Assembly: GCF_040362765.1 (NCBI RefSeq)
Contig: NZ_BAABWK010000002.1
Location: 682,001 to 746,000 of the forward strand
Reading direction: 5' to 3'
From: Pyruvatibacter sp. HU-CL02332
Lineage (GTDB): Bacteria; Pseudomonadota; Alphaproteobacteria; CGMCC-115125
DNA length: 64,000 bases
Below the pieces are notes generated by a model. The model was given only the letters and a program-made list of their open reading frames with translations. It did no database searches and had not been told where the DNA came from. Position numbers and translations under genes: made by a program. Positions 7,132 to 23,870 of this stretch are shown one piece after another (positions within the stretch are counted from its first letter, which is position 1; each line of letters opens with the position of its first letter).

Positions 7132-10035
7132 TCAAACCGATAGCGCCTGTTCGGCTGGCGCAACACTTTCGTACTGACTTACGCATTTCAACAGGCGGGC
7201 CGGATTGATCGGTTTGGATACGTAGTCGGTCATACCAGCCTGAAGATATCGCTCGCTGTCACCAGCCATTGCATTTGCAGTCACTGCAATAATTGGAATA
7301 TCGATCCCAAGAGCCCGAATTTCCCGCGTCGCGGAGATGCCATCTTGAACCGGCATATGCACATCCATCAACACTAGGTCGAAGTCACCTGACTTGATTG
7401 AGTCAACAGCTTCGCGACCATTTCCTACCAAGGTGATGTTATGGCCCGCTGCCTCCAATACGAGGTGAAGCAGGCGCTGATTGACCTGATTGTCTTCCGC
7501 AGCGAGTATTTTCAATGGACTGCGATCTGGATCAGGCACCGATTTTTCGGGCTTGGTCGCTGGCATGTCTTCTTTTTGAGCGGCAGCCACTTCGGTTGGC
7601 AAAGAAAACCAGAACTGGCTTCCCTGTCCTTCGACGCTCTCGGCTCCGATCGCACCGCCCATAGCTTCCACCAAATGCTTGCATATGGACAGGCCCAAGC
7701 CGGTGCCGCCGAAGCGTCTGGTTGTCGTGCTGTCAGCCTGAACAAACCGGTCAAACAGTTTAGGGACCGCGTCGCTGGAAATCCCGATGCCAGTGTCCGA
7801 TACCTCAAACCTGATCGTCGGAATTTTATCATCAGATATGTAGTCCACGCGCATGCTGACTGATCCATTCTCGGTGAACTTGACCGCATTCCCGATGAGA
7901 TTCAGCAATATCTGCCTGACACGAGTAGAATCGATAACAAGACACTCAGGCATGTCAGCGTCGCAGAGGACTTCAAAAGCCACACCCTTATCCATCAGGG
8001 GATCGCGAAAAAGTAACTCGACGTCGTGCAGTACATTTCTGACATCAGTCGGCAACAACTCGAGCGAGACCTTCCCTGACTCAAGCTTTGACAGATCAAG
8101 AATGTCGTTGAGCAAATCCAAAAGCGCATCGGCCGAGTACAAGGCTGTTTCTGCGTATTCGAGTTGACGTTCAGAAAGCGGCGTCTTGATCAACAAATTG
8201 AGCATACCGATTACACCATTCATGGGTGTGCGGATTTCATGGCTCATGTTTGCAAGGAACTGCGTCTTGGCGGCGTCGGCCCTGATTGCGCGTGCACGAG
8301 CGTTCTCCATGCTGACAATGGAAGTTCGCAGTGTAATTCCCATTGATAAGACCGAACTGATGCGCTGCAAAAACAGGGTATATGGCGCAAATATGCACTC
8401 GTGCGTTTCTGCCTGAATAAGGATCGCGCCAAGAATATGCCCACCATCAAGCACCGGTATGGTTACGGAGTCGGCCTGATTTTCCTGAAGTGACCCGCAG
8501 ATTCTGTGGCAGTTTTCGGTTCGTTGATGTGGAGCATGTTTCGCGCAAATGTTCTGGTCCGGAGCAGAAACCAGATCGCGACCGACGTAGCTGGGAAAGC
8601 TGGGTTGGGAGGCGAATCCGCTAACGGCAGACGCCTGGAGTAGCATTCGATCAGGCTGTTGTTCTGCATCGCTCATATAGAGTCCGACTTTTACCTGACC
8701 CTTCAGCCAGGGGATCTTTCGGAGCAGCATGTCCGCGTAAGCAGCAAAATAGTCTTCGATATCGCTCTCCTGAAAAGCGAGCTCCAATAGACTGGTGATA
8801 CAGGCTTCTTCAATGGCCATACGATCAGAGAGCGCGGTGCTTCTCTGCAACTCCAGTTCCTTCGATTCAAGTTCATGGACCTTGTCGGTGAGTTCCACAC
8901 CGATCTGTTCAAGGGCTTCGGCTTTCTCTTCAACGGCTGCGCGCGACGCGATCCGATCCGTGACATCAAACCGGATTGAAACAAACTGGGCCGGCTCACC
9001 ATCGGATGACCTGATGGGGACAATTGTTGTCTGCACCCAGTAGAAGTCACCGTTCTTGGCCCGATTGCAGATATCGCCATTCCAAATACGACCCGCTGCA
9101 AGCGATTGCCACATTTCAACGAAGAAAGCCTTGGAATGGGTCTGCGAATTGACCACACGATGATTGGCGCCGATCAATTCTTCCCGTGAGTAGCCCGATA
9201 TCTGGCAAAAGGCGTCATTCGCATGGATTATCCTGCCTCGACGATCCGTCACAGAAACGATTGCAGCTTTCTCCACACCTTCTACATATTCAGCTAGCCC
9301 AGACACAGCCTCATCCCGGTCGACCAGGGCCGACTCAAGCTGCGCACGGATGGAAACAAGCTCAGTCTCGCGATCCTTCAGGGATTGTTGTGCCTTCAGG
9401 CTTGCAGTTAGTGCCGACTCTGCTTCGGTAAGACCTGTTTCCACCGTCTGTGTATGCTTACTGAGTTGGTTGGCGAAGGCGTAGGATACCAACAACGCTG
9501 CAATCGTCAGGACGATGAGCATTACGGCTTGTGCCAGCCTGACGGTTTCCGGGTCAAAAGGGTTTTGCTGCACCAGCCCGTGTGTTTCAGCGACAAAGAG
9601 GAGCAGAATCGACAGTGCGGACAATGCGCCATAAAGCATGGCAGTCCTTGGGCCCAGGAAGAACGCCGCGCAAAGTGGCGCAATCACAAAGACGGGAGCT
9701 AGACTACCGTCTGCACCCCCAGTCGCATATGAACCAGCGATACTGAGCACCAGCATGCCCGCCAGAAAGACATGAGCAAGCGGGCCAATGTTCTGGCTTA
9801 TTCGGGCGCGTACACCTAAACCCACAAACAGCAACCCAACCACTATGGCCATTATGATGCCAAGCCTTGCCGTCCCGTGCAGCGAGTAAGCCACAGCTGC
9901 TTGAAATAGTATGAGACCTGCAAAGCCAAAGCATGCGGTCACAAATGCGCGCTGCAACGTCTTTGACTGCTTTGTCTTCTGATCAGACACCATGACCAAA
10001 TACCCACGTGATTGAGACGCAGATTTGTAATACAT
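7132..10035 (-). CDS. Membrane hybrid histidine kinase (TM-PAS-GAF-HisKA-HATPase-REC)
   Basis: The 967-aa product starts with about six hydrophobic helices (residues 30-195), then a coiled coil, a PAS domain (about 245-365; [21 protein letters not shown] ending), another coiled coil, and a GAF-like domain (about 400-575). HisKA follows with H599 in [12 protein letters not shown], then HATPase ([34 protein letters not shown]) and a receiver with D891 in VLMDVHMP. All catalytic motifs are present, so it should phosphorylate itself and pass phosphate to its own Asp. The start is uncertain: an ATG at 9993 (MVSDQ) gives a normal N-terminus too, and neither has a strong ribosome site. It converges with the PAS hybrid kinase and probably belongs to the same sensory network. 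Confidence 0.92.
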
Positions 10036-11258: not shown

Positions 11259-12512
11259 GTGATCGACATACGCATCGTAACCAACGCGGCCAGAACTGCG
11301 TTGTTGTCGCTGTTTTTTCTGCATCCAGGCGCACCGGCATTTGGCGCAGAGGACCTGATTGAAATCGTTGTCGTGGGCGACACCGGCTTCAATGGTGCAG
11401 GCGCAAAAGTGTCCGCCCAAGGGGGATACAAGCACGGTCGGCGCTTACTCATTGACGACGCGATTGCCGGCATCCGACATGAACTGCCCGCCGATATTTC
11501 CCTGGCCAATCTGGAAACGGCCGTGACTGCAAACAATGCCATTGGCGGGACGTCAAAACGGTTTTCATTCCGCACCCACCCGGACGCAATCAAAGGATTT
11601 TTGGCGGCCGGACTGAACGCATTTTCCCTCGCCAACAATCATGCACTGGACTACCGGCAGGCTGGTGCAGGTGACACGCTGCGTCACCTGAATGATCTGC
11701 GACCCGCGGGCCTGCTTGCCTATCCCGGGCTGGGACGGTCTCGTGCGGACGCAGTTGCACCACATATGGTGGACATTCACGGAACTGCCGTCGCGCTGTC
11801 ATCAATCGGCATTGGCGGCTGGGGCGTCGTGGCGCCTCCTGGCAAGGCTGGCATGCTTCAGTACCCGGATGATTTTGAATTCGTTCAAGATGCGCTTCGG
11901 GAGACACCCGCCGATATCAGAATTCTCTCCGTTCACTACGGCAAGGAGTTTCAGCCGGAGACGCCACGGTCAACGCGTCGGCAGTTTCGGCAGGCCATTG
12001 CCAATGAGGGCTTCTCTCTCATTGCCGGACATCACAAGCATGTGGCCAACGGCATTGAGCTGATTGAAACCGCGTCGGGGCAATCCGGGTTGATCTTTTA
12101 CGGGCTGGGGAATTTTCTGCATCTCGGCATGCAGAACATGGGTCGACACGACCTATGCCACGATTTTGGCCTGCTTGGTCGGATCACGCTCAAGAAGCAG
12201 GATGATGGGACGCTCAGTCTTGTATCCGTGCGGGTGGTGCCCCTCACCGACATGCACATTGCGACAAAACCACAGCCGCCTGAGAAAGCGATGACACGTA
12301 TTCACGTCATCAACCATCTTTCGGGTCAGTTGACCGATGCGGATGCAGGCGCACAGGGCCTGGCATTTACACCACAACCTGACGGCTCAGGATTATGGTG
12401 CAATCCTGCCGATACGTCGGGTCACTGCGATGCAGGTGACCCCGCTCCACCGCCCTCAAATGCCCTTGCAAACAAGATCACAAAGGCCTGCAGTCGGGTC
12501 CTTCGGAGATAG
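11259..12512 (+). CDS. CapA-family (PGA_cap) exported protein
   Basis: The 417-aa protein matches the CapA fold, a metallophosphoesterase-like domain found in poly-gamma-glutamate capsule proteins: VVVGDTGFNG, SLANLETAVT, SLANNHALDY, LSVHYGKEF and IAGHHKHV appear in the family order. An N-terminal hydrophobic segment ending in APAFGAED is a likely signal peptide, so it is probably periplasmic. It starts at a GTG with GGGGAGGA eight bases upstream. No CapB or CapC partner is present, so a true capsule role is doubtful; solitary CapA-like proteins of unknown substrate are common. The C-terminus has a Cys- and Pro-rich tail (NPADTSGHCDAGDPAPPP). It ends one base before the convergent hydroxylase gene. 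Confidence 0.85.
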   Translation: MIDIRIVTNAARTALLSLFFLHPGAPAFGAEDLIEIVVVGDTGFNGAGAKVSAQGGYKHGRRLLIDDAIAGIRHELPADISLANLETAVTANNAIGGTSKRFSFRTHPDAIKGFLAAGLNAFSLANNHALDYRQAGAGDTLRHLNDLRPAGLLAYPGLGRSRADAVAPHMVDIHGTAVALSSIGIGGWGVVAPPGKAGMLQYPDDFEFVQDALRETPADIRILSVHYGKEFQPETPRSTRRQFRQAIANEGFSLIAGHHKHVANGIELIETASGQSGLIFYGLGNFLHLGMQNMGRHDLCHDFGLLGRITLKKQDDGTLSLVSVRVVPLTDMHIATKPQPPEKAMTRIHVINHLSGQLTDADAGAQGLAFTPQPDGSGLWCNPADTSGHCDAGDPAPPPSNALANKITKACSRVLRR

Positions 12513-12513
12513 T

Positions 12514-14007
12514 CTAGGCTGCGACACCATTCCCGGTTTCGAGATATCGGACATAGGAGGCCAACAGTTCATTGGCTTTGCCGGTTCCAAAAATGATCTT
12601 GTCGGGTCGGGCGAGAAGCGCGTCTGCGTCAGCGAGCTGCTCGGCAAGCAGGCCGTCTGGATCATGCAGAGCTCCTTCGCCTTCAAGCCACGCTACATGC
12701 AGTCCGGGCACTTTGCTTGCGCCCGCGTCATCTGGAGCGTCTTCCTTTGATCGCACAATCAGGATTGGCTGATAGACCGCTGCTGCATCCAGGCCTGGGT
12801 CTTTTGCAAGCGGCAGGCCTGCATTGAGGGTTTCTGCGCCGCCGGACTCTACCGGTGGCAATCCGGGCATGCCGGAAATGCGGTCCTCGCGCGGACCCGC
12901 GCACATCTCTGCGTCGCGTGCGCGCGCAATTTCAGGATCATGGGTGCAGACCACCTGCCCCATGCCGATGGCTGTCTCGGTAATGAAACGGATCTGCGGC
13001 TCGCGTTCCGGCTGCACCGTGTCGAGCAGTGCGTCCGACGCATGACCTGACAGGATCGCGTCCAGTTTCCAGGCCAGATTGGCGGCATCCCGGACACCAG
13101 AACACAGGCCCTGCCCCATGAACGGAGGCATCTGATGAGCTGCATCCCCGGCAATCAGCACCCGGCCGTCGCGCCACCGCTCAGCAAACACACCATGGAA
13201 TGTGTAGACGGCGCTGCGCTCCACCTCGATATCGGCCATGGTGACGCCATCGGGGAGCTGAGGTGCAATGAGGCTTTCCAGCTTCTCTGGCGCAGTCATG
13301 TCCTGGTCGACTTCATCATGGAGCAGCATAAATTCCCAGCGATGCCGCCCATGGCCGATGGGAATGGAAGTGACGGGGCGCTGGGGATCGCAAATCTGAC
13401 GACTGGCCTTGTGCAGCACGTCCATGCCCTCCTTCAGGAGCACATCGACCACCACCCATGGCTCATTGAAGTCCAGATCGTCCATTCCGATTCCGGCCTG
13501 CCGGCGCACGAGCGACCGGCCACCGTCGCACCCGACGAGGTACTTCGTCTCAACGGGATTTTGCGGGTCATCGGAAAATGTGACGCGGACACCATCTGAT
13601 CCGCTGTCGTCGTAGGACACAAACTCCACCCCAAGACGGACTTCGACATTCGGGTGGCGGGCAACATCGGCACGGATGGCTTTTTCCAACGTTGGCTGAT
13701 GAAAAATGCTGCTCCATGGGTAGCCCGTCGGGGCCAGTTCCAGCGGCGGCACAAACCCCATCAACAGGTCACCGTCGGCTGTTTCAAAGTCGTAGCTGGC
13801 GGTCGGGCGACTGATCGCCATGACCGCCTCATCCGCATTGACCAGGCTGATCAGACGGAAGACCTCATGATCCATGTGCACCGCGCGCGGCAGTGGGTAG
13901 ATGCTCGTATCGCGCTCAACGACAAGAACCTTTCGGCCCTTTGCGCCAAGCAGTGCTGCGAGCATGGCCCCAACCGGGCCGTACCCGACGATTGTGACGT
14001 CGTACAT
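12514..14007 (-). CDS. FAD-dependent aromatic hydroxylase (MhpA/PheA-type)
   Basis: The 497-aa protein is a class A flavin monooxygenase. The dinucleotide motif VGYGPVGAMLA is at the N-terminus, the DG motif appears as GCDGGRSLVRR (about residue 160), and the GD motif as LIAGDAAHQMPPFMGQG (about residue 290). Proteins of this kind add an OH group next to an existing phenol OH using NAD(P)H and O2. MhpA, which hydroxylates 3-(3-hydroxyphenyl)propionate, is the nearest named relative I recognise, but the substrate here cannot be read. It is the last gene of a three-gene leftward operon (dioxygenase, hydrolase, hydroxylase), nine bases after the hydrolase. GGGGG precedes the ATG. Confidence 0.9.
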   Translation of the reverse strand: MYDVTIVGYGPVGAMLAALLGAKGRKVLVVERDTSIYPLPRAVHMDHEVFRLISLVNADEAVMAISRPTASYDFETADGDLLMGFVPPLELAPTGYPWSSIFHQPTLEKAIRADVARHPNVEVRLGVEFVSYDDSGSDGVRVTFSDDPQNPVETKYLVGCDGGRSLVRRQAGIGMDDLDFNEPWVVVDVLLKEGMDVLHKASRQICDPQRPVTSIPIGHGRHRWEFMLLHDEVDQDMTAPEKLESLIAPQLPDGVTMADIEVERSAVYTFHGVFAERWRDGRVLIAGDAAHQMPPFMGQGLCSGVRDAANLAWKLDAILSGHASDALLDTVQPEREPQIRFITETAIGMGQVVCTHDPEIARARDAEMCAGPREDRISGMPGLPPVESGGAETLNAGLPLAKDPGLDAAAVYQPILIVRSKEDAPDDAGASKVPGLHVAWLEGEGALHDPDGLLAEQLADADALLARPDKIIFGTGKANELLASYVRYLETGNGVAA

Positions 14008-14016
14008 GGCAGCCCC

Positions 14017-14886
14017 CTACCCGATGAAGGTTTTTGTATCTTCGGCCACCAGGGTGTTGGTGATCGATCCAAGTTTTTCGATTTCTATGGTGACCTTGTC
14101 GCCGACCTTCATGAACCGGGGTGGCTTCATGGCAATGCCGACGCCACCGGGTGTACCGGTGAAGATGATGTCGCCGGGCTCCAGGGTCATGACCTGTGTC
14201 AGCTGAGCGATCTGGTCGAAGCAGTCATAGATCAGATGCTGGGTGTTGGAGCTTTGCATCTCTTCACCGTTGACGAGACACTTGATGTCGAGGTCGTGGG
14301 GATCACCCACTTCATCAGATGTTGTGAGCCATGGGCCGATGGGGCCATGGGTGTCAAAGCTCTTGCCGATGGTGAATTGCGGTGAGTGGAACTGCCAGTC
14401 ACGCACGGAGATGTCATTGCCACAGCAATACCCAGCAACGATCTCATGGGCACGGTCGCGTGGGACATTGCGCGCGCGCTTGCCGACGACCAGAACGAGT
14501 TCAGCTTCCCAGTCGACCATGTCTGACACGGCGGGCTTGAGAACGTCAGCACCCTCGCCGACGCAGCCTGTGGGTGACTTGGTGAACCAGATCTGGTTTT
14601 CCGGTGTGTCGAGGCCTGACTCTTTCACATGGTCGCCGTAATTGAGGCCGATGGCCATGACCTTGCCGGGCTTCATGATCGGGGCTTCGAGGGTCACATC
14701 ACTCAGCGCGATTGCGTCGGCCGAGTCGGCCTTCTGCGCTGCGGCCATGGCCGCGTCACCGGCGGCAAGAAAACTGATCATGTCGGTTGGCAGTGACGGA
14801 TCGGCCTTGGACAGATCAATGATCTTGTCGTCTACGACTTTGCCGATGCGTGTTGTTCCACCATGGGTGAATGTTGCGAGCTTCAT
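14017..14886 (-). CDS. Fumarylacetoacetate hydrolase (FAH)-family protein
   Basis: The 289-aa product carries the FAH-family C-terminal domain: metal-binding Glu residues in VDWEAELVLVVG, an Asp in GYCCGNDISVRDWQ, and the GDIIFTGTPGGVGIAMKPPRFMKVGD signature near the end. Members hydrolyse or decarboxylate diketo acids, often ring-cleavage products of catechols. It lies between the extradiol dioxygenase and the aromatic hydroxylase, the place expected for the enzyme that processes the ring-opened product. Hydratase or decarboxylase activity is an alternative within the same fold. AAGGATA lies eight bases upstream of the ATG. Confidence 0.9.
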   Translation of the reverse strand: MKLATFTHGGTTRIGKVVDDKIIDLSKADPSLPTDMISFLAAGDAAMAAAQKADSADAIALSDVTLEAPIMKPGKVMAIGLNYGDHVKESGLDTPENQIWFTKSPTGCVGEGADVLKPAVSDMVDWEAELVLVVGKRARNVPRDRAHEIVAGYCCGNDISVRDWQFHSPQFTIGKSFDTHGPIGPWLTTSDEVGDPHDLDIKCLVNGEEMQSSNTQHLIYDCFDQIAQLTQVMTLEPGDIIFTGTPGGVGIAMKPPRFMKVGDKVTIEIEKLGSITNTLVAEDTKTFIG

Positions 14887-14922
14887 GCTGCGTATCCTTG
14901 AATTGAAATTGAAATAGGGGTG

Positions 14923-15849
14923 TCAGGAGCCAAGCGTGGGCGGCGGCGGCGGCCCCCACTGGACACCAAGCAATGTGTCTATGCCCTGCATGTTGGGTGG
15001 CGTGTCACTGGTGAAGAGATCACCGTCGGTCCAGTGCTCCACGGTGTGGCCCCATGGATCGCGCCAGTAATCAAAAATCTGACTGCCGAGGAAATGACGC
15101 CCGACACCCCACTCATGGGTGTAGCCCCTGGCTTCCAGATGGCTGTTGCCGGCCATCAGATCATCCACATTGGCCACTTCAAAGGCTGCATGGTTGAAGC
15201 CGGCAGTGCCGGTTCCCAGCAAGAACAATGTGTGGTGGTCGACGGGCTTCTCGCCCTGATCGCAGCGCATGAACGCGCCAATGGACATGTCTTTTTCGAT
15301 TTCGATTTCGTCTGACGTAACCAGACCAAAGCGTTCCTTGTACCAGGCCTCGCTCTGGCGGAAATCGACGACATTGAGCACGCAATGGCCAAGACGCATA
15401 ACCTGCGCCGGGCCTTCGCCCGAACGCAGCGGCACGTCAACGCGCTGGCTATCGGTCGCTTTGTTGTCCGGCGTGTTGCGCCGTACGGGCAAAGCTGGAA
15501 CCAGCTCGCGGTCAGCCACGACTTCGACCTTGTGACCATTGGGGTCCACAAATCGGACGCGCTTGCCGCCGCCGGGCTCGGTGATGTCTTCAACCGGGCT
15601 GGCACCTTCCATGGCGGCCAGAACCTCAAGGTCCGCCACGCTATCTGTCAGAAATGCTATTCCCGCGAAGCCTGCCTCTCCCTTGTGGGTTACATGCACG
15701 AAAGGGTCGCTGCCGGCACCGCGCATATACAGCGCGTCATCCGTTCGAGACGCCCTCACCAACCCGAAATCAGACAGGAAGGTTTCCATCTGATCCAGGT
15801 CCGGCGCCTGAAACCGGACGAATGCAACATCAGACACTCGAATACCCAT
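14923..15849 (-). CDS. Two-domain type I extradiol ring-cleavage dioxygenase (VOC fold)
   Basis: The 308-aa protein has two VOC modules (residues 5-115 and 150-280). The Fe(II) ligand triad reads H155 (LGHCVLNV), H220 (FNHAAFEV) and E271 (HTVEHW), with the spacing seen in BphC-type enzymes. H205/H206, H252 (GRHFLG) and Y261 sit where catalytic residues are expected, so an active catechol-cleaving enzyme is likely. The C-terminus has a run of five prolines. The ATG at 15849 has GGAGG five bases upstream. It is the first gene of the leftward operon and is divergent from a TetR gene across an 81-base gap containing a 16-base inverted repeat. Confidence 0.88.
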   Translation of the reverse strand: MGIRVSDVAFVRFQAPDLDQMETFLSDFGLVRASRTDDALYMRGAGSDPFVHVTHKGEAGFAGIAFLTDSVADLEVLAAMEGASPVEDITEPGGGKRVRFVDPNGHKVEVVADRELVPALPVRRNTPDNKATDSQRVDVPLRSGEGPAQVMRLGHCVLNVVDFRQSEAWYKERFGLVTSDEIEIEKDMSIGAFMRCDQGEKPVDHHTLFLLGTGTAGFNHAAFEVANVDDLMAGNSHLEARGYTHEWGVGRHFLGSQIFDYWRDPWGHTVEHWTDGDLFTSDTPPNMQGIDTLLGVQWGPPPPPTLGS

Positions 15850-15855
15850 CACGAC

Positions 15856-15922
15856 CTCCAATAAACTTGTTATGTGTCGAACTTAGTGGTATTATTTTTG
15901 TTATTCAACAAGTTTATTGGAG
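15856..15922. promoter_or_regulatory. Divergent operator: perfect 16-base inverted repeat
   Basis: CTCCAATAAACTTGTT at 15856-15871 is the exact reverse complement of AACAAGTTTATTGGAG at 15907-15922, with a 35-base spacer. Each arm ends in the ribosome site (GGAG) of one of the two divergent genes. The left arm also overlaps the likely -35 box of the TetR gene. The arrangement suggests binding by the TetR protein at both arms, shutting both directions; which bases it contacts is inference. Confidence 0.65.
15867..15895 (+). promoter_or_regulatory. Predicted sigma-70 promoter for the TetR gene
   Basis: TTGTTA at 15867-15872 and TATTAT at 15890-15895 are separated by 17 bases. Transcription would start near 15902, about 30 bases before the GTG. 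The -35 box overlaps the left arm of the inverted repeat, consistent with autorepression. Confidence 0.5.
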
Positions 15923-15930
15923 TTGATCGC

Positions 15931-16581
15931 GTGCCAGTATCCGAAATTGTTCCCGCAAAGTCAGATTCACCCCGCCGCCGCGCCCCACAAAAGCGGGCAG
16001 AAGAAACGCGCGAACTGCTGCTGGATGCAGGTACCGAGCTCTTCTCGTCCATCGGCTTTGACGGCGTATCCGTGCGAACGATTGAAAGCCATGCGGGGGT
16101 TCAGCGTGGGCTGGTCGCCTACCACTTCGACACGAAGGAGGCCTTCTGGAAGCAGGTAGTGGATGGGGTGTTTGCCCAACTCGTCGAACGATTTTCTCAG
16201 GTGATCGACCTGATGGAATCACTGCCCCTACGGGAACGGTTGAAGCTGTATGTGACCATGTTTGTGCGCTTCAGCGCCGAAGTACCGCAGCTCAATCGGC
16301 TGATGGTTCAGGAAGGCAAAGCACCTTCCTGGCGCATGGACTACATCGCTGAAAAATACATCATCCCAATGCAGGCAGACACGTCAAAAGCGCTGGGTGT
16401 CGATATCGACCCGCACGGGTTCTACCTGCTGGTCGGCGCGGGCGCTTTTGTGTTTTCCGTTGAGCACGAATGCAAAAAGGTTTTCGGGATTGATCCGCGC
16501 TCAGATGAATTCATCACCGAGCATGCCGCCATCGTGGCCGACGTCATGGCCAGCCGCCTGGAAGCGGTTGCGTCCAAATAG
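15931..16581 (+). CDS. TetR/AcrR-family transcriptional regulator
   Basis: The 216-aa protein has a basic N-terminal arm (SPRRRAPQKRAEETRE), then a TetR helix-turn-helix: LLLDAGTELFSSIGFDGVSVRTIESHAGVQRGLVAYHFDTKEAFW. The 'Y-H-F-x-x-K-E' ending is diagnostic. The C-terminal domain (residues 70-210) is helical and fits a ligand pocket. I choose the GTG at 15931, eight bases after TTGGAG; an upstream ATG at 15874 would lie inside the operator and promoter. It is divergent from the ring-cleavage operon and followed by a sulfatase-like gene and a GST gene on its own strand, so it probably controls both arms in response to an aromatic compound. Confidence 0.9.
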   Translation: MPVSEIVPAKSDSPRRRAPQKRAEETRELLLDAGTELFSSIGFDGVSVRTIESHAGVQRGLVAYHFDTKEAFWKQVVDGVFAQLVERFSQVIDLMESLPLRERLKLYVTMFVRFSAEVPQLNRLMVQEGKAPSWRMDYIAEKYIIPMQADTSKALGVDIDPHGFYLLVGAGAFVFSVEHECKKVFGIDPRSDEFITEHAAIVADVMASRLEAVASK

Positions 16582-16613
16582 TCCAGACAAAAATGCCCTG
16601 GGGAGATGACATA

Positions 16614-18338
16614 TTGAAGAACATTTCACGCAGAACTGCGCTTATAGGTGCCGGTGCGATTGCGGCTGCCTACGGGGCATATCGTATCGCGCGGCCCGGA
16701 AACGCAGGACGACCAAGAGTAGCACTTGATACGCCATCCGGGCGCAGGCCGAATATTCTGCTGATCCTCACCGACCAGGAACGCGCCCGACATCTGATCC
16801 CGAGTGAAATCTCCCTGCCCCACCATGATCGCCTGATGGCTGGAAGCACCGTCTTCCGCAATGCCAGCACCGTTAGCAATCTGTGTTCAATGGCACGCGG
16901 CATCGTGTACTCCGGGCTGCACCCACAGCAAAACGGTCTGTGGGAAAACACTCCCCTTCCCTATTCCGGCGGTTTCCGCAAAGACATCCCTACCTTGGGG
17001 ACGATGATGCAAGACGCGGGGTATACGACCGGGTATTTCGGCAAGTGGCACCTCAGTCATTTTGGTGTCGATGATGCAGTTGGTCCACGGACAATAGCCT
17101 CAACATTCGGCGGCTTTGGTTTTGAGCATACAGACCAGGACCGCGAGCGTGACGGAGCACAGCATGGCTGGAAGTATGACCCACTGAGCGCTGCCAGTGC
17201 AGCCAGCTTCATGGCAGAGCAAAAAAGTGGCGACAAACCATGGTTCGCCGCGGTGAATTTCGTCAATCCGCATGACATCATGTTCTTCAAGACGAGCGAG
17301 CATCAGCAGCAGAGCCGTCTGAACGAGTTTCCAGACGTTATTCTCCCAGCTCCTGAAGACCCGCTTTATGCGAAGGATTGGGGAATTGATCTGCCGGATA
17401 CATTTGGTGACGCCACGCTGGAAGGCAAACCGCCCGCACATCGCGAGATGCAGAAAGTCATGGGGTTGGCTTTGGGCGAGATCCCCCTTGATCGAACCGA
17501 CTACTGGCGCGCCTACAACAACTATTACTTCAACTGTCTCGCCGACATGGATCGCAGCCTTGGCTCTGTTCTCGATGCCCTCGAGGCAACCGACCAGGAG
17601 CAGGACACCATTGTAATTTACCTGGCGGATCATGGTGAGATGGCTGGTGTTCACGGGTTGCGTGAAAAAGGCGGCAATGTCTATCGAGAAAACCAGAACA
17701 TTCCATTCTTCATCCGGCATCCTGAAGTGCAAGGAGGCAGGGAGGTTCAGGCTCTAGCGTCGCAGTTGGACGTCGTGCCAACCCTTCTGTCATTTGCAGG
17801 CATTGACGCCACCACCCGCCAGGAGATGTACCCGCTTCTCTCAGGTCATGACCTTTCACCCGCCCTGACAGCGAGCGGCATTGCTGTGGCGGATGGCCCC
17901 CGCACAGGGACACTCATGCAGTGGACCAGCCTGGTTCACATGTCGGAAAAAAGCGTCCGCAATTTTGCCGCAGTGCAGAACGCCGCAGGTCCCTTTGCCA
18001 AGTTCAACGCCATGGACCTTCGAGAGTTCTTCGGAGGATTCAAAAATCGCGGCCATATGCGGGGGATTGCTGACGGTCGTTACAAGTTCGCGCGATACTT
18101 TTCGCCATTTGAACACCATCAGCCCACCACCCTGGCTGATCTGTCCGCCAGCAACGACCTTGAGCTCTATGACACGCTCACCGACCCCGCTGAAGCCGTG
18201 AACCTCGCCAATGATCTGCAACGATATGAGGACACCATTCTTGGCCTGAACAGTCAGATGAATGCTCTCATTGCAGATGAGATCGGCATAGATGACGGGT
18301 CCTACCTGCCTGGCCCCTCCTCAATCTGGACCGCATAG
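16614..18338 (+). CDS. Tat-exported sulfatase-family (alkaline phosphatase superfamily) protein
   Basis: With a TTG start at 16614 (GGGGAG eight bases upstream) the 574-aa product begins KNISRRTALIGAGAIAAAYG, a clear twin-arginine signal; the ATG at 16593 has no ribosome site. The sulfatase fold is shown by NILLILTDQERAR, TGYFGKWHLS, and YLADHGEMAGVHGLREKGG. In the activation motif Cys is present, but the sequence is C-S-M-A-R rather than C-x-P-x-R, so maturation to formylglycine is not assured. It could hydrolyse a sulfate, phosphonate or phosphate ester in the periplasm. It follows the TetR gene by about 30 bases and precedes a GST, suggesting release of an aryl group that the divergent operon then degrades. 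Confidence 0.85.
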   Translation: MKNISRRTALIGAGAIAAAYGAYRIARPGNAGRPRVALDTPSGRRPNILLILTDQERARHLIPSEISLPHHDRLMAGSTVFRNASTVSNLCSMARGIVYSGLHPQQNGLWENTPLPYSGGFRKDIPTLGTMMQDAGYTTGYFGKWHLSHFGVDDAVGPRTIASTFGGFGFEHTDQDRERDGAQHGWKYDPLSAASAASFMAEQKSGDKPWFAAVNFVNPHDIMFFKTSEHQQQSRLNEFPDVILPAPEDPLYAKDWGIDLPDTFGDATLEGKPPAHREMQKVMGLALGEIPLDRTDYWRAYNNYYFNCLADMDRSLGSVLDALEATDQEQDTIVIYLADHGEMAGVHGLREKGGNVYRENQNIPFFIRHPEVQGGREVQALASQLDVVPTLLSFAGIDATTRQEMYPLLSGHDLSPALTASGIAVADGPRTGTLMQWTSLVHMSEKSVRNFAAVQNAAGPFAKFNAMDLREFFGGFKNRGHMRGIADGRYKFARYFSPFEHHQPTTLADLSASNDLELYDTLTDPAEAVNLANDLQRYEDTILGLNSQMNALIADEIGIDDGSYLPGPSSIWTA

Positions 18339-18359
18339 CGGCTTATCTGGAAACACGCC

Positions 18360-19373
18360 ATGACACCCTTCACCATTAGTCTCTCGGCACTGGCCACATT
18401 ACTGTTGATATGGTTTCTGATTGAAAAGTCACGCCGCCGCACACACCCGGTCACAGGTGGGCTGCAAGAGAACATAACCCTGCCGCATACGGATGAGTTT
18501 GAGCTTTATGCCAATGCCTTTTCGCATTGTTCCCGCAAGACGCGACTTGTCATGGCGGAAGCGGGCGTGCCTTACAATTATCACCAGATCGATCTGATCG
18601 AGACCGGCAAGTACGAAACGATTGGGGCGGCGTATCTGAAAGTGAACCCTTCGGGTCTGGTGCCAACGCTCGTGCACAATGGCCACCCGATTTATGAATC
18701 GGACGACATTCTGGCCTATGTGGCGGATCATGCAGCGCCCGGTGCGGCTTCACTGGTTCCAACAGATGCGGCGGATCGCGCGGAGATGGATCGCTGGCTT
18801 GAGAGTGGTGTCATCTCAAGTGATGACCCGATGGCAAACATGCAGACGCAGGCGGGCAGCTGCATTCCCGGACTGACTTTTCCGGTCTTCGTCACCGCCA
18901 TCCGCTACGTTCCCTTGCGACGGATTTTGGTCGGTTTCCTGTTTCATCCTGACAAGAAACGGCCAGCTTTCTTCACTGCGTCACGCATTTTCGGCCTGCG
19001 GACCATGCTGTCGCAGAAGCCACTTCAGAAGATGATGCATGCCAGCCGCGATCACATGCGCAGGCACCTGGCTCACCTGGCGCAGAAGCTTGAAAGTACA
19101 GAGGGCCCGTGGATTCTTGGCGAGCAGTACACGTTGGCGGATGTCACCTGGTCCTGCATTCTGCTGCGCGTTGATGAGACCGGGTGGCTTGACCATTTTT
19201 TGCAGGATGCGGACCTGGCTCCGATCCGGACCTATTACAGCGCACTGAAGAACCGGGATAGCTGGAGAGCGGCCATCACCGACAAGGGTCATCCGATTGT
19301 CGAGAAGGCTGAAGCCGATCTGAAACAGGCGATCGCCACGGATAGCAAGGTCGCCGAGGCGCTGTACGGCTAG
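18360..19373 (+). CDS. Membrane-anchored glutathione S-transferase-family protein
   Basis: The 337-aa protein starts with one hydrophobic helix (ISLSALATLLLIWFLIEK), then a basic cluster, then a GST fold. The thioredoxin-like domain covers about residues 45-120: ELYANAFSHCSRKTRLVMAEAGVPY, the cis-Pro in NPSGLVPTLVHNG, and the glutathione-binding ESDDILAYVAD. An all-helical C-terminal domain (125-325) ends with LGEQYTLADVTWS, the GST N-capping region. The catalytic residue may be the Ser or Cys in SHCS. It is 21 bases after the sulfatase-like gene and likely in one operon with it and TetR. The anchor is unusual for a bacterial GST and would place it at the inner membrane, facing the cytoplasm because of the basic residues after the helix. 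Confidence 0.85.
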   Translation: MTPFTISLSALATLLLIWFLIEKSRRRTHPVTGGLQENITLPHTDEFELYANAFSHCSRKTRLVMAEAGVPYNYHQIDLIETGKYETIGAAYLKVNPSGLVPTLVHNGHPIYESDDILAYVADHAAPGAASLVPTDAADRAEMDRWLESGVISSDDPMANMQTQAGSCIPGLTFPVFVTAIRYVPLRRILVGFLFHPDKKRPAFFTASRIFGLRTMLSQKPLQKMMHASRDHMRRHLAHLAQKLESTEGPWILGEQYTLADVTWSCILLRVDETGWLDHFLQDADLAPIRTYYSALKNRDSWRAAITDKGHPIVEKAEADLKQAIATDSKVAEALYG

Positions 19374-19382
19374 GGCAAAAAG

Positions 19383-19973
19383 TCAGCGTTGTGCGTTCGT
19401 GGCAGCTTCAATGAAGGCATCTACCGGCCCGTAGAAAGGCACGCGCAGTTTTTCAAGATCCGCGTCTGTCCAGTCCCACCATCTGAGACTGAGCAACGCC
19501 GCAATCTGCGTGTCGTCGAACCGCTTGCGGATTTCGCGTGCAGGATTGCCGCCGACGATCGCGTAAGGCTCTACATCCTTGGTGACCACCGCACCGGCTG
19601 CCACAATGGCACCGTCAGCAATCGTCACACCTGACATGATGATGGCGCGCGCACCTATCCACACGTCATTGCCAATGGTGATGCCACCCTTGGTGACCGC
19701 ATCCTGATTTGGCTTGTCCGTATCCCAGATCAGGGTCTTGAACGGGTATGTGCTGGGCAGATCAATGGGGTGATCCGCCTTTGAGAAAAACAGCACGTCC
19801 GGCCCGATGGAACAAAACGCTCCCACCTTGAGGGGAGCTTCCATGGAGGCTCCGGCGACCATTCGCCGCGCCAGACCATAGGAATGGCGGCCGATGGAGA
19901 TTTCGGGGCCCAGATCAGGTTCTGATTTGGTCAGCTTACGTATTTTCCGGCGTAGCTGTTTCAAAAAGCTCAT
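19383..19973 (-). CDS. Left-handed beta-helix acetyltransferase (CatB/LacA-type)
   Basis: The 196-aa product shows hexapeptide repeats, GGITIGNDVWIGARAIIMSG followed by VTIADGAIVAAGAVVTKDVEPYAIVGGNPAREIRKRF, typical of trimeric O-acetyltransferases. A His in KADHPID is placed like the catalytic His of the family. I start at the ATG at 19973, which overlaps the stop of the upstream glycosyltransferase gene by four bases (ATGA), so the two are translationally coupled. The pair may build and acetylate a surface sugar. The acceptor cannot be told from the sequence. Confidence 0.88.
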   Translation of the reverse strand: MSFLKQLRRKIRKLTKSEPDLGPEISIGRHSYGLARRMVAGASMEAPLKVGAFCSIGPDVLFFSKADHPIDLPSTYPFKTLIWDTDKPNQDAVTKGGITIGNDVWIGARAIIMSGVTIADGAIVAAGAVVTKDVEPYAIVGGNPAREIRKRFDDTQIAALLSLRWWDWTDADLEKLRVPFYGPVDAFIEAATNAQR

Positions 19974-20965: not shown

Positions 20966-21706
20966 ATGGGTGACCTGGTTCTGCGTGCGGACGACAAAGG
21001 TGTTGCGACACTGACGATCAACCGGCCTGACAAGCTGAATGCGCTGAATGTGCCTGTGTTTCAGGAACTCGAAGCACATGTGGCTGACATTGAAGCATCG
21101 CAGGATAGCGTTGGCTGTGTCGTTGTGCGTGGCGCGGGACGTTGTTTTTCTGCCGGTCATGACCTTGGGGACATTGCGACAGGTGAAAAGCTGCCGCGCC
21201 CCAACTATCAGCCGCTGGTGATTGAACGTCTGGCGAACCTGCCGCAGCCGGTTATCAGTGCCGTCCACAGTCATTGCTACACGGGTGCCCTGGAATTGGC
21301 TTTGGCGGGCGACATTGTGCTGGCGAGCGAGAACGCCAAGTTTGCTGACACCCATGCGAAATGGTCGTTGACGCCTGTGTGGGGCATGAGCCAGAGATTG
21401 CCGCGGCGCGTGGGCAAGACCAAGGCTGCTGAAATGATGCTGACCGCCCAGACCTACTCAGGACGCCAGGCGGAAGCCATGGGACTGGCCAATGTGTGTT
21501 ACGCCGATGACGGCTTCTATGACGATGTGGCTGCGTTCTGCGGCACGATGCTGGAGAACTCCTGGTTCTCGCTGCGGGCTCTCAAGAAGCTGCTGCGGGA
21601 GACAGATGGTCTTGATCTGTCGGCCGGGCTGGCGCACGAAATCTACAAGTCCGAGGGCGTTGGCCCGGACATGCAGGAACGGATTGCGGGCTTCGGGAAG
21701 AAGTAG
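20966..21706 (+). CDS. Enoyl-CoA hydratase/isomerase-family protein
   Basis: The 246-aa crotonase-fold protein has the oxyanion-hole sequence RCFSAGHDLGDI and the helix LELALAGDIVLASENAKFADTHAKWSL. The Glu usually found in the 'PE' position (Glu144 of rat hydratase) is His here, while the second catalytic Glu position (KAAEMML) is kept, so the chemistry may be isomerase or another crotonase reaction rather than plain hydration. It converges with a second crotonase gene, one base apart. GAGGGAGA precedes the ATG. It probably acts in acyl-CoA breakdown with the thiolase nearby. Confidence 0.88.
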   Translation: MGDLVLRADDKGVATLTINRPDKLNALNVPVFQELEAHVADIEASQDSVGCVVVRGAGRCFSAGHDLGDIATGEKLPRPNYQPLVIERLANLPQPVISAVHSHCYTGALELALAGDIVLASENAKFADTHAKWSLTPVWGMSQRLPRRVGKTKAAEMMLTAQTYSGRQAEAMGLANVCYADDGFYDDVAAFCGTMLENSWFSLRALKKLLRETDGLDLSAGLAHEIYKSEGVGPDMQERIAGFGKK

Positions 21707-21707
21707 G

Positions 21708-22562
21708 TCAGCCGGCCTTGCTGAGGGTCGGTGCACCGGCCTCGCGGGCGGGCGCATAGTTGGCGTCGCGCTTTTCCAGCTGGGACAGGACGGCTTCGAT
21801 CTGATTGGCACTGCCGATGAGGGCATCCTGCTCAACGGATTCAAGCACCAGGCCTTCTTCTTCGCCTGCATAGACTGCTGCACTCAAAAGGCGCTTGGAG
21901 GCTTCGATGGCCGATGGGCTTTTTGAAGCGATCTCGCGGGCCGTGGCAAGCGCTGCGGCAAGCGGGTCGGCTTCAACGCGGGTGGCAAAGCCGTATTCCA
22001 GTGCTTCTTCGCCAGAGAAGACGCGGCCGGTATATGTCAGCTCGCGGACGATATCTTCGCGGGCGAGATGGCGCATGATCTGGGTGCCTGCCATGTCCGG
22101 CACAAGGCCCCAGCGGATTTCCATGATGGACAACTTGGTGTCCGGTGCGACGTAGCGCATATCAGCCCCAAGGATGACCTGGAAGCCACCGCCAAAGGCA
22201 ACACCGTGAACGGCGGCGATTACAGGCACCGGCATTTCGCGCCAGACGCGGACCGCATATTGCGGGCGGTTGGAGATGCCGTGGGTGCGTTGCTCAAGGC
22301 GCCCTGCACCGCCTGTCGGGGCTGCTTCTTGCGGTTTGGCATCGGCCATCTTGCCGAAATTGCCCATGTCGAGACCGGCGCAGAAGGCGCGGCCTTCGCC
22401 TGAAATGACGATGCAGCGTACATCAGGATTGGCGGCCAGCTCCTGACCGCGGGTGATGAGTGCCTCGAACATGGCATCGTCCAGGGCATTCATCTTGTCA
22501 ACGCGGGTGAGACGGACGTCGGCCACGCCGTTGTCAATTGATACGGAAATGCGGTCGCTCAT
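21708..22562 (-). CDS. Enoyl-CoA hydratase (crotonase) family protein
   Basis: The 284-aa protein has ALDDAMFEAL near the N-terminus, the oxyanion-hole stretch GRAFCAGLDMGNF, VHGVAFGGGFQVILGADMRYV, and LSIMEIRWGLVPDMAGTQIMRHL with Glu and Asp in catalytic positions. This Glu/Asp arrangement resembles ECH1-type isomerases (delta3,5-delta2,4-dienoyl-CoA isomerase). An insert of about 30 residues (PQEAAPTGGAGRLEQR region) lies after the oxyanion site. GGAGG lies upstream of the ATG. It follows a terminator-separated thiolase gene on the same strand; a role in unsaturated fatty-acid oxidation is likely. Confidence 0.9.
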   Translation of the reverse strand: MSDRISVSIDNGVADVRLTRVDKMNALDDAMFEALITRGQELAANPDVRCIVISGEGRAFCAGLDMGNFGKMADAKPQEAAPTGGAGRLEQRTHGISNRPQYAVRVWREMPVPVIAAVHGVAFGGGFQVILGADMRYVAPDTKLSIMEIRWGLVPDMAGTQIMRHLAREDIVRELTYTGRVFSGEEALEYGFATRVEADPLAAALATAREIASKSPSAIEASKRLLSAAVYAGEEEGLVLESVEQDALIGSANQIEAVLSQLEKRDANYAPAREAGAPTLSKAG

Positions 22563-22580
22563 CTGTCTGTCCTCCTGCTG

Positions 22581-22618
22581 ACAAAAGAAAACCGGCGGTG
22601 GCTGCTGCCACCGCCGGT
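22581..22618 (-). terminator. Rho-independent terminator after the thiolase gene
   Basis: ACCGGCGGTGGC (22591-22602), loop TGCT, GCCACCGCCGGT (22607-22618) forms a perfect 12-bp GC-rich stem. On the minus strand it is followed by TTTTCTTTTGT. It lies ten bases after the thiolase stop and would separate the thiolase from the crotonase gene. Confidence 0.85.
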
Positions 22619-22628
22619 GAGTGTCGTC

Positions 22629-23870
22629 CTAGTTCATGCGCTCAACGATGATGGCCGGAGCCATGCCACCTGCAGCACACATGGTCACGAGACCATATTT
22701 CTTGTCCTGACGTTCAAGCTCATCAACCATGGTGCCGATGAGGATAGAACCGGTGGCACCGATCGGGTGACCCAGTGCCATGGCACCGCCATTCACATTG
22801 ACCTTGTCGCGGTCGAGGTTGAGATCGCGAATGAACTTTTCAGCCACAACCGAGAACGCTTCGTTGATTTCGAACAGGTCGATGTCTTCGATCTTGAGAC
22901 CGGCCTTATCGAGAACCTTCTTGGCGGCAGGCACGGGTGCGTTGAGCATCAGTGTCGGGCTGTCACCCATGTTTGCCATGGCAACGACGCGAGCGCGCGG
23001 CTTCAGGCCGTTCTTCTTGGCGTAGTCAGGTGACGCGAGCAGAACAGCTGCTGCCCCATCCACAACGCCCGACGAGTTACCGGCGTGGTGCACGTGGTTG
23101 ATGTCGAGATCCGGGTAGACCTGCTGCACGAGCTTGCGGAAGGTCGTGCCCTTCTCGTCGAGCTCATAGTCGGCGATGCCGGCAAATGACGCCTTGAGGC
23201 CTGCAAGGCCCTCGCGGGTCGTCTGCGGACGGGGGAACTCTTCGTGGTCGAGGGCAACGGTGCCGTCCATGTTGAGGACGGGCACAAGCGCCTTGTCGAA
23301 GTGACCGTTCTTGATGGCGTTGTCGGCGCGCTGCTGGCTGACCAGTGCAAGGTCATCAACGGCTTCGCGGGAGATGCCTTCGAGCGTTGCGATGGCATCA
23401 GCGCACACACCCTGGTGCGGCTGCGGGTGCATGTCGCGCAGGTGCTCGTTGCCACTGTCGAGGAACGGGCTCATGGACTCATGACCGGGCTGACCGTTGA
23501 GGGACATCATTTCTGTGCCACCAGCGATGACCAGATCTTCCATGCCGGACATGATGTTGGCCGCAGCGATGTTCACCGTGGTGATGCCTGAGCCGCAGAA
23601 ACGGTCAAGGGTCATGCCGGAGGAGCGCACGTCATAGCCTGCGTCGAGAGCGGCCATGCGACCAAGGTCACCGGCCTGCTTGCCGCGCTGGGAGGATGTG
23701 CCCCAGATGATGTCGTCAACTTCTTCGGTCTTCAGGCTGTTGCGCTCGGCAACGGCTTTGAGAACTGTTGAACCCAGATGCTGGGGATGCAGTTCCCACA
23801 GGGCGCCTTTGCCAGCCTTGCCGATCGCGCGGGGCGTGCGGCAGGCATCGATGATCCATGCTTCGCTCAT
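22629..23870 (-). CDS. Acetyl-CoA acetyltransferase (thiolase)
   Basis: The 413-aa protein has the three thiolase signatures: the acyl-accepting Cys in GMTLDRFCGSGI (about residue 91), NVNGGAMALGHPIGATGS near residue 365, and the second catalytic Cys in VTMCAAGGMAPA near the end. It forms or cleaves the C-C bond between acyl-CoA and acetyl-CoA in beta-oxidation. The ATG follows GAGGATGAGGAA. It has its own terminator, and lies between a crotonase and a saccharopine-dehydrogenase-like gene, all leftward, which marks a lipid-breakdown neighbourhood. Confidence 0.95.
   Translation of the reverse strand: MSEAWIIDACRTPRAIGKAGKGALWELHPQHLGSTVLKAVAERNSLKTEEVDDIIWGTSSQRGKQAGDLGRMAALDAGYDVRSSGMTLDRFCGSGITTVNIAAANIMSGMEDLVIAGGTEMMSLNGQPGHESMSPFLDSGNEHLRDMHPQPHQGVCADAIATLEGISREAVDDLALVSQQRADNAIKNGHFDKALVPVLNMDGTVALDHEEFPRPQTTREGLAGLKASFAGIADYELDEKGTTFRKLVQQVYPDLDINHVHHAGNSSGVVDGAAAVLLASPDYAKKNGLKPRARVVAMANMGDSPTLMLNAPVPAAKKVLDKAGLKIEDIDLFEINEAFSVVAEKFIRDLNLDRDKVNVNGGAMALGHPIGATGSILIGTMVDELERQDKKYGLVTMCAAGGMAPAIIVERMN

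Follow-up and report, generated by a model that had tools for sequence, protein, structure and literature searches.

The closest described counterpart of the locus considered here is the hcdABC operon of Pseudomonas mandelii 7HK4, which serves the degradation of 7-hydroxycoumarin and 3-(2,4-dihydroxyphenyl)propionate. In the parts of that report that were available, HcdA carries out the hydroxylation, ring opening falls to HcdB, and HcdC, a member of the FAH family, acts on the product, as assayed in vitro for HcdA and in recombinant cells for HcdB and HcdC (PMC6222606). The present locus lies in a 64,000-nucleotide stretch of DNA (the window; positions 682,001 to 746,000 of contig NZ_BAABWK010000002.1) from Pyruvatibacter sp. 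HU-CL02332, whose genome comprises 3.4 Mb in three contigs. Positions 12514-19373 of the window hold two divergent arms of three genes each: the minus arm encodes, in reading order, an extradiol dioxygenase, an FAH-family protein and a FAD-dependent aromatic hydroxylase, and the plus arm a TetR regulator, a sulfatase-family enzyme and a GST. Judged from sequence and by analogy with known operons, this may be a TetR-controlled aromatic catabolic module in which the hydroxylase, a catechol-type dioxygenase and the FAH protein act in turn, with an entry enzyme that removes an ester group and is recurrent and optional; we put the probability of this reading at about one in two.

The window core and hcdABC each have a FAD hydroxylase, a type I extradiol dioxygenase and an FAH-family hydrolase on one strand, a likeness at the level of enzyme families. 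Gene order differs (A-B-C in hcdABC, dioxygenase-FAH-hydroxylase in the window), and the available passages on the operon mention no sulfatase, GST gene or TetR (PMC6222606).

The ring-cleavage core

All six proteins matched Pfam models above cut-off (FAD_binding_3, FAA_hydrolase, Glyoxalase, TetR_N, Sulfatase and GST_N), and these matches together with the open reading frames (ORFs) confirmed the gene content and positions given in a preliminary description of the stretch. That description had also taken the hydroxylase, a dioxygenase with an intact metal triad and the FAH protein to form a meta-cleavage route, a view supported by the domains, the triad and the fold.

The dioxygenase (14923-15849, minus strand; PF00903, 54.4 bits) is predicted to consist of two VOC modules; its start was assumed to be the ATG at 15849, in an ORF that opens at 15861. 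The two-histidine, one-glutamate triad H155, H220 and E271 was invariant in 22 aligned sequences, the window's included, and so were H205, H206, H252 and Y261. Going by spacing, these residues would correspond to the metal ligands and to second-sphere positions in known enzymes. An AlphaFold2 model (pLDDT 91.9) had the two-module fold and matched 5znh (Z 34.0, root-mean-square deviation 2.3, 281 residues) and 1mpy (Z 33.6, deviation 2.4, 282 residues). Catechol 2,3-dioxygenases were among the top structural matches, and 3b59, annotated as a glyoxalase, tied with them (Z ~34). On this sequence and model evidence the assignment as a catechol-type extradiol dioxygenase is well founded. We also weighed a hydroquinone-type enzyme like PcpA or LinE and dropped it, since both the His/Tyr pattern and the structural matches are of the catechol type; that PcpA and LinE structures are not among the matches listed is no evidence.

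The hydroxylase (12514-14007, minus strand; PF01494, 197.6 bits), a predicted class A enzyme, cleared the curated cut-off of NF004829, the MhpA-type 3-(3-hydroxyphenyl)propionate hydroxylase subfamily (479.3 against 390 bits); it scored far under the MhpA equivalog cut-offs and was therefore not assigned as MhpA. The FAH-family protein (14017-14886, minus strand; PF01557, 225.2 bits), a putative C-C hydrolase or hydratase, was below cut-off in all seven NCBIfam models that it matched; its closest solved structure was 6v77, labelled 'putative HpcE', and the maleylpyruvate hydrolase 6jvv was also a match. The GST (18360-19373, plus strand; PF13409/PF13417) has an S-x-C-S site and an N-terminal hydrophobic stretch, the latter read from sequence, and was below cut-off in all six NCBIfam models matched, the best named being FzlA and maiA.

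Plasmids carried 48 relatives of the dioxygenase, each with less than 60% identity. In the four neighbourhoods read, FAH was annotated nearby every time and a hydroxylase of the MhpA type twice; no named pathway was found in these four.

A predicted operator between the arms

The TetR gene (15931-16581, plus strand; PF00440, 42.7 bits) was assumed to start at the GTG at 15931, in an ORF that opens at 15874. The gap between the arms held a perfect inverted repeat (16/16) made up of CTCCAATAAACTTGTT at 15856-15871 and AACAAGTTTATTGGAG at 15907-15922, with 35 nt between the repeat arms. The repeat was identical in genome G001, and genomes G003, of the same genus, and G125, of a different family, kept only the core AAACTTG-N39-CAAGTTT, with a spacing of exactly 39 nt. 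A GGAG precedes the downstream start inside each repeat arm, so that the symmetry is partly ribosome-binding sequence. The repeat is best read as a predicted TetR operator shared by both arms. A shared operator linking the arms had been proposed earlier, and the conservation of this operator-like repeat in G001, G003 and G125 upholds it as a predicted site.

Recurrence of the sulfatase clade beside ring-cleavage genes

The sulfatase-family gene (16593-18338, plus strand; PF00884, 147.9 bits) is predicted to encode a protein exported by the twin-arginine translocation (Tat) system. Of the preliminary description's membrane GST and Tat-exported sulfatase, the hydrophobic stretch and the twin-arginine start were both seen in the sequence; the window sulfatase itself had no match to a Tat model, and its SAR11 relative at locus L047 passes TIGR01409.

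A scan of named genomes for the sulfatase gave 71 loci, with flanks of up to 10 kb in which neighbours were counted at E ≤ 1e-10. In a quick tree of 78 rows, supported by SH-aLRT only and with long branches flagged (L010, L011 and L012 among them), the window protein fell in one clade (SH-aLRT 100) with proteins from G001, two Myxococcota/Deltaproteobacteria, a Hyphomicrobiales metagenome-assembled genome (MAG), NORP32, Erythrobacter and SAR11. Eleven of the 89 sulfatase stretches, each of them partial, a duplicate or distant, were left off the tree (L001, L062, L071, L072, two of L073, three of L074, L079 and L128), and the partial SAR11 loci L062, L071, L072 and L073 were assigned to the clade by identity for the neighbour counts. 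FAH was near the sulfatase in 24 of the 27 clade loci and in 2 of the 44 outside, the hydroxylase in 23 and 3, and the GST in 24 and none, where the 44 outside loci include the very distant L074-L078 and four shorter than 11 kb, and the in-clade L008 is a 9.2 kb contig. The linkage of this clade with ring-cleavage genes was borne out in SAR11, Myxococcota and Erythrobacter; in the latter two the sulfatase lies near FAH and the dioxygenase in differing arrangements. A phylum-wide search around the genome of L009 (245 genomes) returned, apart from this genome itself, a single distant match with 38% identity. Ten plasmid relatives of the sulfatase were found, and ring-cleavage genes were absent from the one neighbourhood read.

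The SAR11 (Pelagibacteraceae) clusters share with the window a sulfatase of the same clade that is divergent from FAH, a hydroxylase, a GST and an extradiol-type VOC protein. They differ from it in that the VOC protein is single-module (its metal positions retain His, His and Glu in five sequences inspected), in an additional CMD gene, and in the presence of TetR in only three of the 22 SAR11 loci. In L047, GST, CMD, hydroxylase and FAH stand in that order on one strand and sulfatase and VOC on the other; L036, L045 and L060 carry extra genes, TetR included, between FAH and sulfatase. CMD, hydroxylase, FAH and GST were present in all 22 loci and VOC in 19, the contigs of the remaining three ending at the sulfatase. 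A sample of 297 genomes from the order to which the L047 genome belongs, taken as Pelagibacterales, contained the sulfatase in 39 (about one in eight) and FAH in 43. All 39 sulfatase carriers had FAH on the same contig in divergent orientation, with a gap of 71-74 bp in 34 genomes, 1181-1971 bp in four and 81 bp in G457 (to the first piece of a split sulfatase frame). These genomes are related, and a Fisher test on the pairing of sulfatase and FAH overstates their independence.

A gene that is CysN/CysC-like by its sequence stood downstream of the cluster GST in three of the 22 SAR11 loci (L047:2622-5936, L050 and L054), and in L047 a PAPS_reduct-domain protein lies beside it. SAR11 bacteria are often described as lacking sulfate assimilation, and a CysN/CysC-like gene is odd there.

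Clusters that lack the sulfatase

Several results weigh against a single pathway entered through the sulfatase; those from gene neighbourhoods are given here and those from the protein itself in the following section. The genome G003 matched the window collinearly over 12581-16556 and 18411-19935, either side of the sulfatase, and had GST, TetR, dioxygenase, FAH and hydroxylase, the sulfatase alone being absent from between TetR and GST; this genome is 81% complete, and the cluster site is intact on one contig. The dioxygenase (E ≤ 1e-50) occurred in 29 of 385 same-class genomes, and a sulfatase stood beside it in two of these (G000 and G001) and not in the other 27. By lineage, FAH was a neighbour of the clade sulfatase in four of seven (the window genus, L009, L012 and SAR11), and 22 of the 27 clade loci belong to SAR11, a single lineage. 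In L011 the hydroxylase and GST were near the sulfatase and no dioxygenase or FAH match was found, and in L010 there was no match to hydroxylase, FAH, GST or dioxygenase, the proteins present including TetR, SDR, DsbA-like and Glyoxalase_4 members. Among the six window genes there is no transporter.

Of 34 dioxygenase places, 19 were taken as longer stretches, with neighbours from ORF calling, which can miss genes. FAH was nearby in 13 of these, the hydroxylase in eight and GST in five; no sulfatase of the window's clade was called in any of the 19. G125 has the dioxygenase, FAH, TetR and a membrane GST without the sulfatase, and no hydroxylase was seen nearby. More distant sulfatase relatives occur elsewhere in G069, G185, G281 and G358, the one in G185 about 20 kb away from a dioxygenase, and distant sulfatase-family frames were more than 5 kb from the dioxygenase in L123 and L130. 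That G125 had convergently recruited a different sulfatase (locus L120) was considered and rejected: in the translations read, the sulfatase-family gene there adjoins a presumed phosphonoacetaldehyde-hydrolase-like protein and a presumed FAD oxidase, and so looks like part of a phosphonate cluster.

Sulfatase and GST are adjacent at three loci (the window, L009 and L011), which suggests that G003 lost the sulfatase rather than that the gene is a recent gain. The link between the sulfatase and the ring-cleavage module is real but optional. Co-occurrence, which the preliminary description had named as a check, was above chance, and at the same time strongly dependent on lineage and on the anchor gene, as the 27 of 29 dioxygenase genomes without an adjacent sulfatase illustrate. 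Such dispensability, seen again in G003, is what would be expected if the ring-cleavage operon acted alone on a free phenol and the sulfatase were a co-regulated passenger with another substrate, and the window genome has nine PF00884 genes. Against this stands the same sulfatase clade near FAH, hydroxylase, GST and VOC genes in SAR11 and near FAH and the dioxygenase in Myxococcota and Erythrobacter, in arrangements that differ, and we regard a passenger role as unlikely. In its size and its number of PF00884 genes, the window genome resembles that of Ca. Phaeomarinobacter ectocarpi, for which the passages available report a 3.4 Mbp genome, eight formylglycine-dependent sulfatases and life on brown algae.

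Three sets of neighbourhoods are recorded for their gene content. L128:3077-9230, in G185, contains an out-of-clade sulfatase relative (39%) with an FAH-like gene (40%) about 3.5 kb off and a dioxygenase-FAH-hydroxylase set about 20 kb further. L011:6803-16551, from Rhodobiaceae NORP32, has two sulfatase-family genes, two GSTs, a hydroxylase and a P450 within 10 kb. In L010 the DsbA-like protein (7887-8507; Pfam DSBA), beside the SDR and near TetR and the clade sulfatase, presumably resembles 2-hydroxychromene-2-carboxylate isomerases.

Active site and maturation of the sulfatase-family enzyme

Residues Cys98, Arg102, Lys151, His153, His227, Asp346, His347 and Lys359 of the sulfatase were invariant in alignments of 10 and 20 members; the S-M-A between C98 and R102 was not. 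The codons of this motif, CSMAR, occupy 16884-16898 on the plus strand. According to the parts of the SulfAtlas description that were available, the S1 catalytic pattern is [CS]-x-[PA]-x-R, and the second residue after the cysteine is Pro in 87% of S1 sulfatases, Ala in 369 of 4058 and any other residue in less than 1% each (PMC5066984). By that account the window protein has the fold, the Cys and Arg and the K-x-H of the formylglycine sulfatases of family S1, and the second S1 signature, G-Y-x-[TSCV]-x(3)-G-K-..-H, is present as GYTTGYFGKWH at residues 143-153; it departs from them in having CSMAR, outside the first pattern, where they have CxPxR or CxAxR (PMC5066984). At the same position the 25 clade rows of the tree had Met in six (the window and five relatives), Thr in one and Pro in 18, the latter from SAR11, where the motif is CSPAR and once CSPSR. 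The 53 rows outside the clade had Pro in 44, Ser in seven and Ala in two.

Genes of family PF03781, membership of which is alone no proof of formylglycine-generating activity, numbered three in the window genome and also occurred in G001-G003 and in the genomes that hold L009-L012. None was found in the 39 SAR11 carriers (genome completeness not given), as against some relative in 35 of the 258 other genomes of the order. The anaerobic maturase model TIGR03942 was passed in none of 45 genomes, with three weak matches below cut-off. The first S1 pattern being broken, the second retained and PF03781 not found in SAR11, the window protein was not filed as an S1 sulfatase. Choline and glycan sulfatases made up most of the best solved relatives of its structural model, phosphonate monoester hydrolases ranking further down; at 17-21% identity such relatives can say little about substrate.

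That the protein is no formylglycine sulfatase, and works with an unmodified cysteine or on another ester of the aromatic substrate (a phosphate ester, for example), would agree with the Met of the window and its five relatives where almost every S1 member has Pro or Ala (PMC5066984), and with the lack of PF03781 and TIGR03942 hits in the genomes searched. It agrees poorly with the invariance of Cys98, Arg102 and the sulfatase-type Lys151/His153, with the second S1 signature, with Pro in the 18 SAR11 rows, and with the occurrence of PF03781 genes in the genomes of the window and of L009-L012; moreover, a residue other than Pro also occurs in 9 of the 53 rows outside the clade. We consider it doubtful, and sulfate removal would be the likeliest activity of the enzyme. 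A wider proposal is that a cross-phylum clade of Tat-exported sulfatase-fold proteins, present in roughly one in eight of the sampled SAR11-order genomes with no known formylglycine-forming enzyme found in the carriers, unmasks sulfated aromatics for a dedicated extradiol pathway, either without formylglycine or through an as yet undescribed maturase; this is tentative and rather improbable.

Proposed pathway

In the catabolic module that we favour, the hydroxylase would turn a phenol into a catechol or trihydroxybenzene, which the dioxygenase would then open by meta cleavage, leaving the ring-fission product to be cleaved by the FAH protein, the core working like hcdABC. TetR bound to the inverted repeat would keep both arms repressed as long as no aromatic inducer is present, and the GST, presumably anchored at the membrane, may conjugate or isomerise substrate or product. 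In some lineages the exported sulfatase-family enzyme would strip the phenol of an ester group (most likely sulfate) outside the cell, and the released phenol would be taken up. This entry step is included because of the recurrent linkage and the intact sulfatase K-x-H site. Of the order first proposed (release, uptake, hydroxylation, ring opening and hydrolysis), the catechol-type route stood; the release and uptake steps fared less well, the sulfatase being dispensable, its CSMAR lying outside the S1 pattern and none of the six genes encoding a transporter. Nothing found pointed to the sulfated algal phenolic that had been suggested as substrate.

A gentisate-like route, in which the GST would isomerise a cis ring-fission product as in the maleylacetoacetate and maleylpyruvate pathways before FAH hydrolyses it, is quite improbable: GST does accompany FAH in all 22 SAR11 loci and in sulfatase-free relatives, maiA is among the best GST models and 6jvv among the FAH matches, but the dioxygenase is a two-module VOC protein with a catechol-type triad, gentisate dioxygenase is of the cupin type, and the GST passes no isomerase model, scoring 55.9 against the cut-off of 171.05 in the maleylacetoacetate isomerase (zeta GST) model TIGR01262.

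Meta-cleavage operons are well known. Open-licence literature on SAR11, Pelagibacter or arylsulfatase together with ring cleavage turned up no sulfatase-meta-cleavage cluster, which is not proof that none has been published, and the recurrent tie apparent from sequence in Alphaproteobacteria, Myxococcota and SAR11 was not found described. SAR86 is reported to have both arylsulfatases and aromatic genes, not described as clustered in the passages available. If the link is functional, it would offer a testable route by which very abundant ocean bacteria could turn over sulfate-capped aromatics. It also poses the question of what activates the SAR11 enzyme where no formylglycine-generating enzyme can be recognised.

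Neighbouring genes and other sulfatase-FAH pairs

Outside the clade, two Rhodospirillaceae MAGs (L043:3099-6301 and L044:7877-12660) combined FAH and a single-module VOC gene with a gene of the sulfatase family, L044 also having a cupin and an alcohol dehydrogenase; these may be an independent case of sulfatase-FAH pairing. On the hydroxylase side of the window locus, a convergent PGA_cap-family gene (11259-12512) ends one base from the hydroxylase stop. Close downstream of the GST arm, at 20966-23870, lie two enoyl-CoA hydratase-family genes and a thiolase gene.

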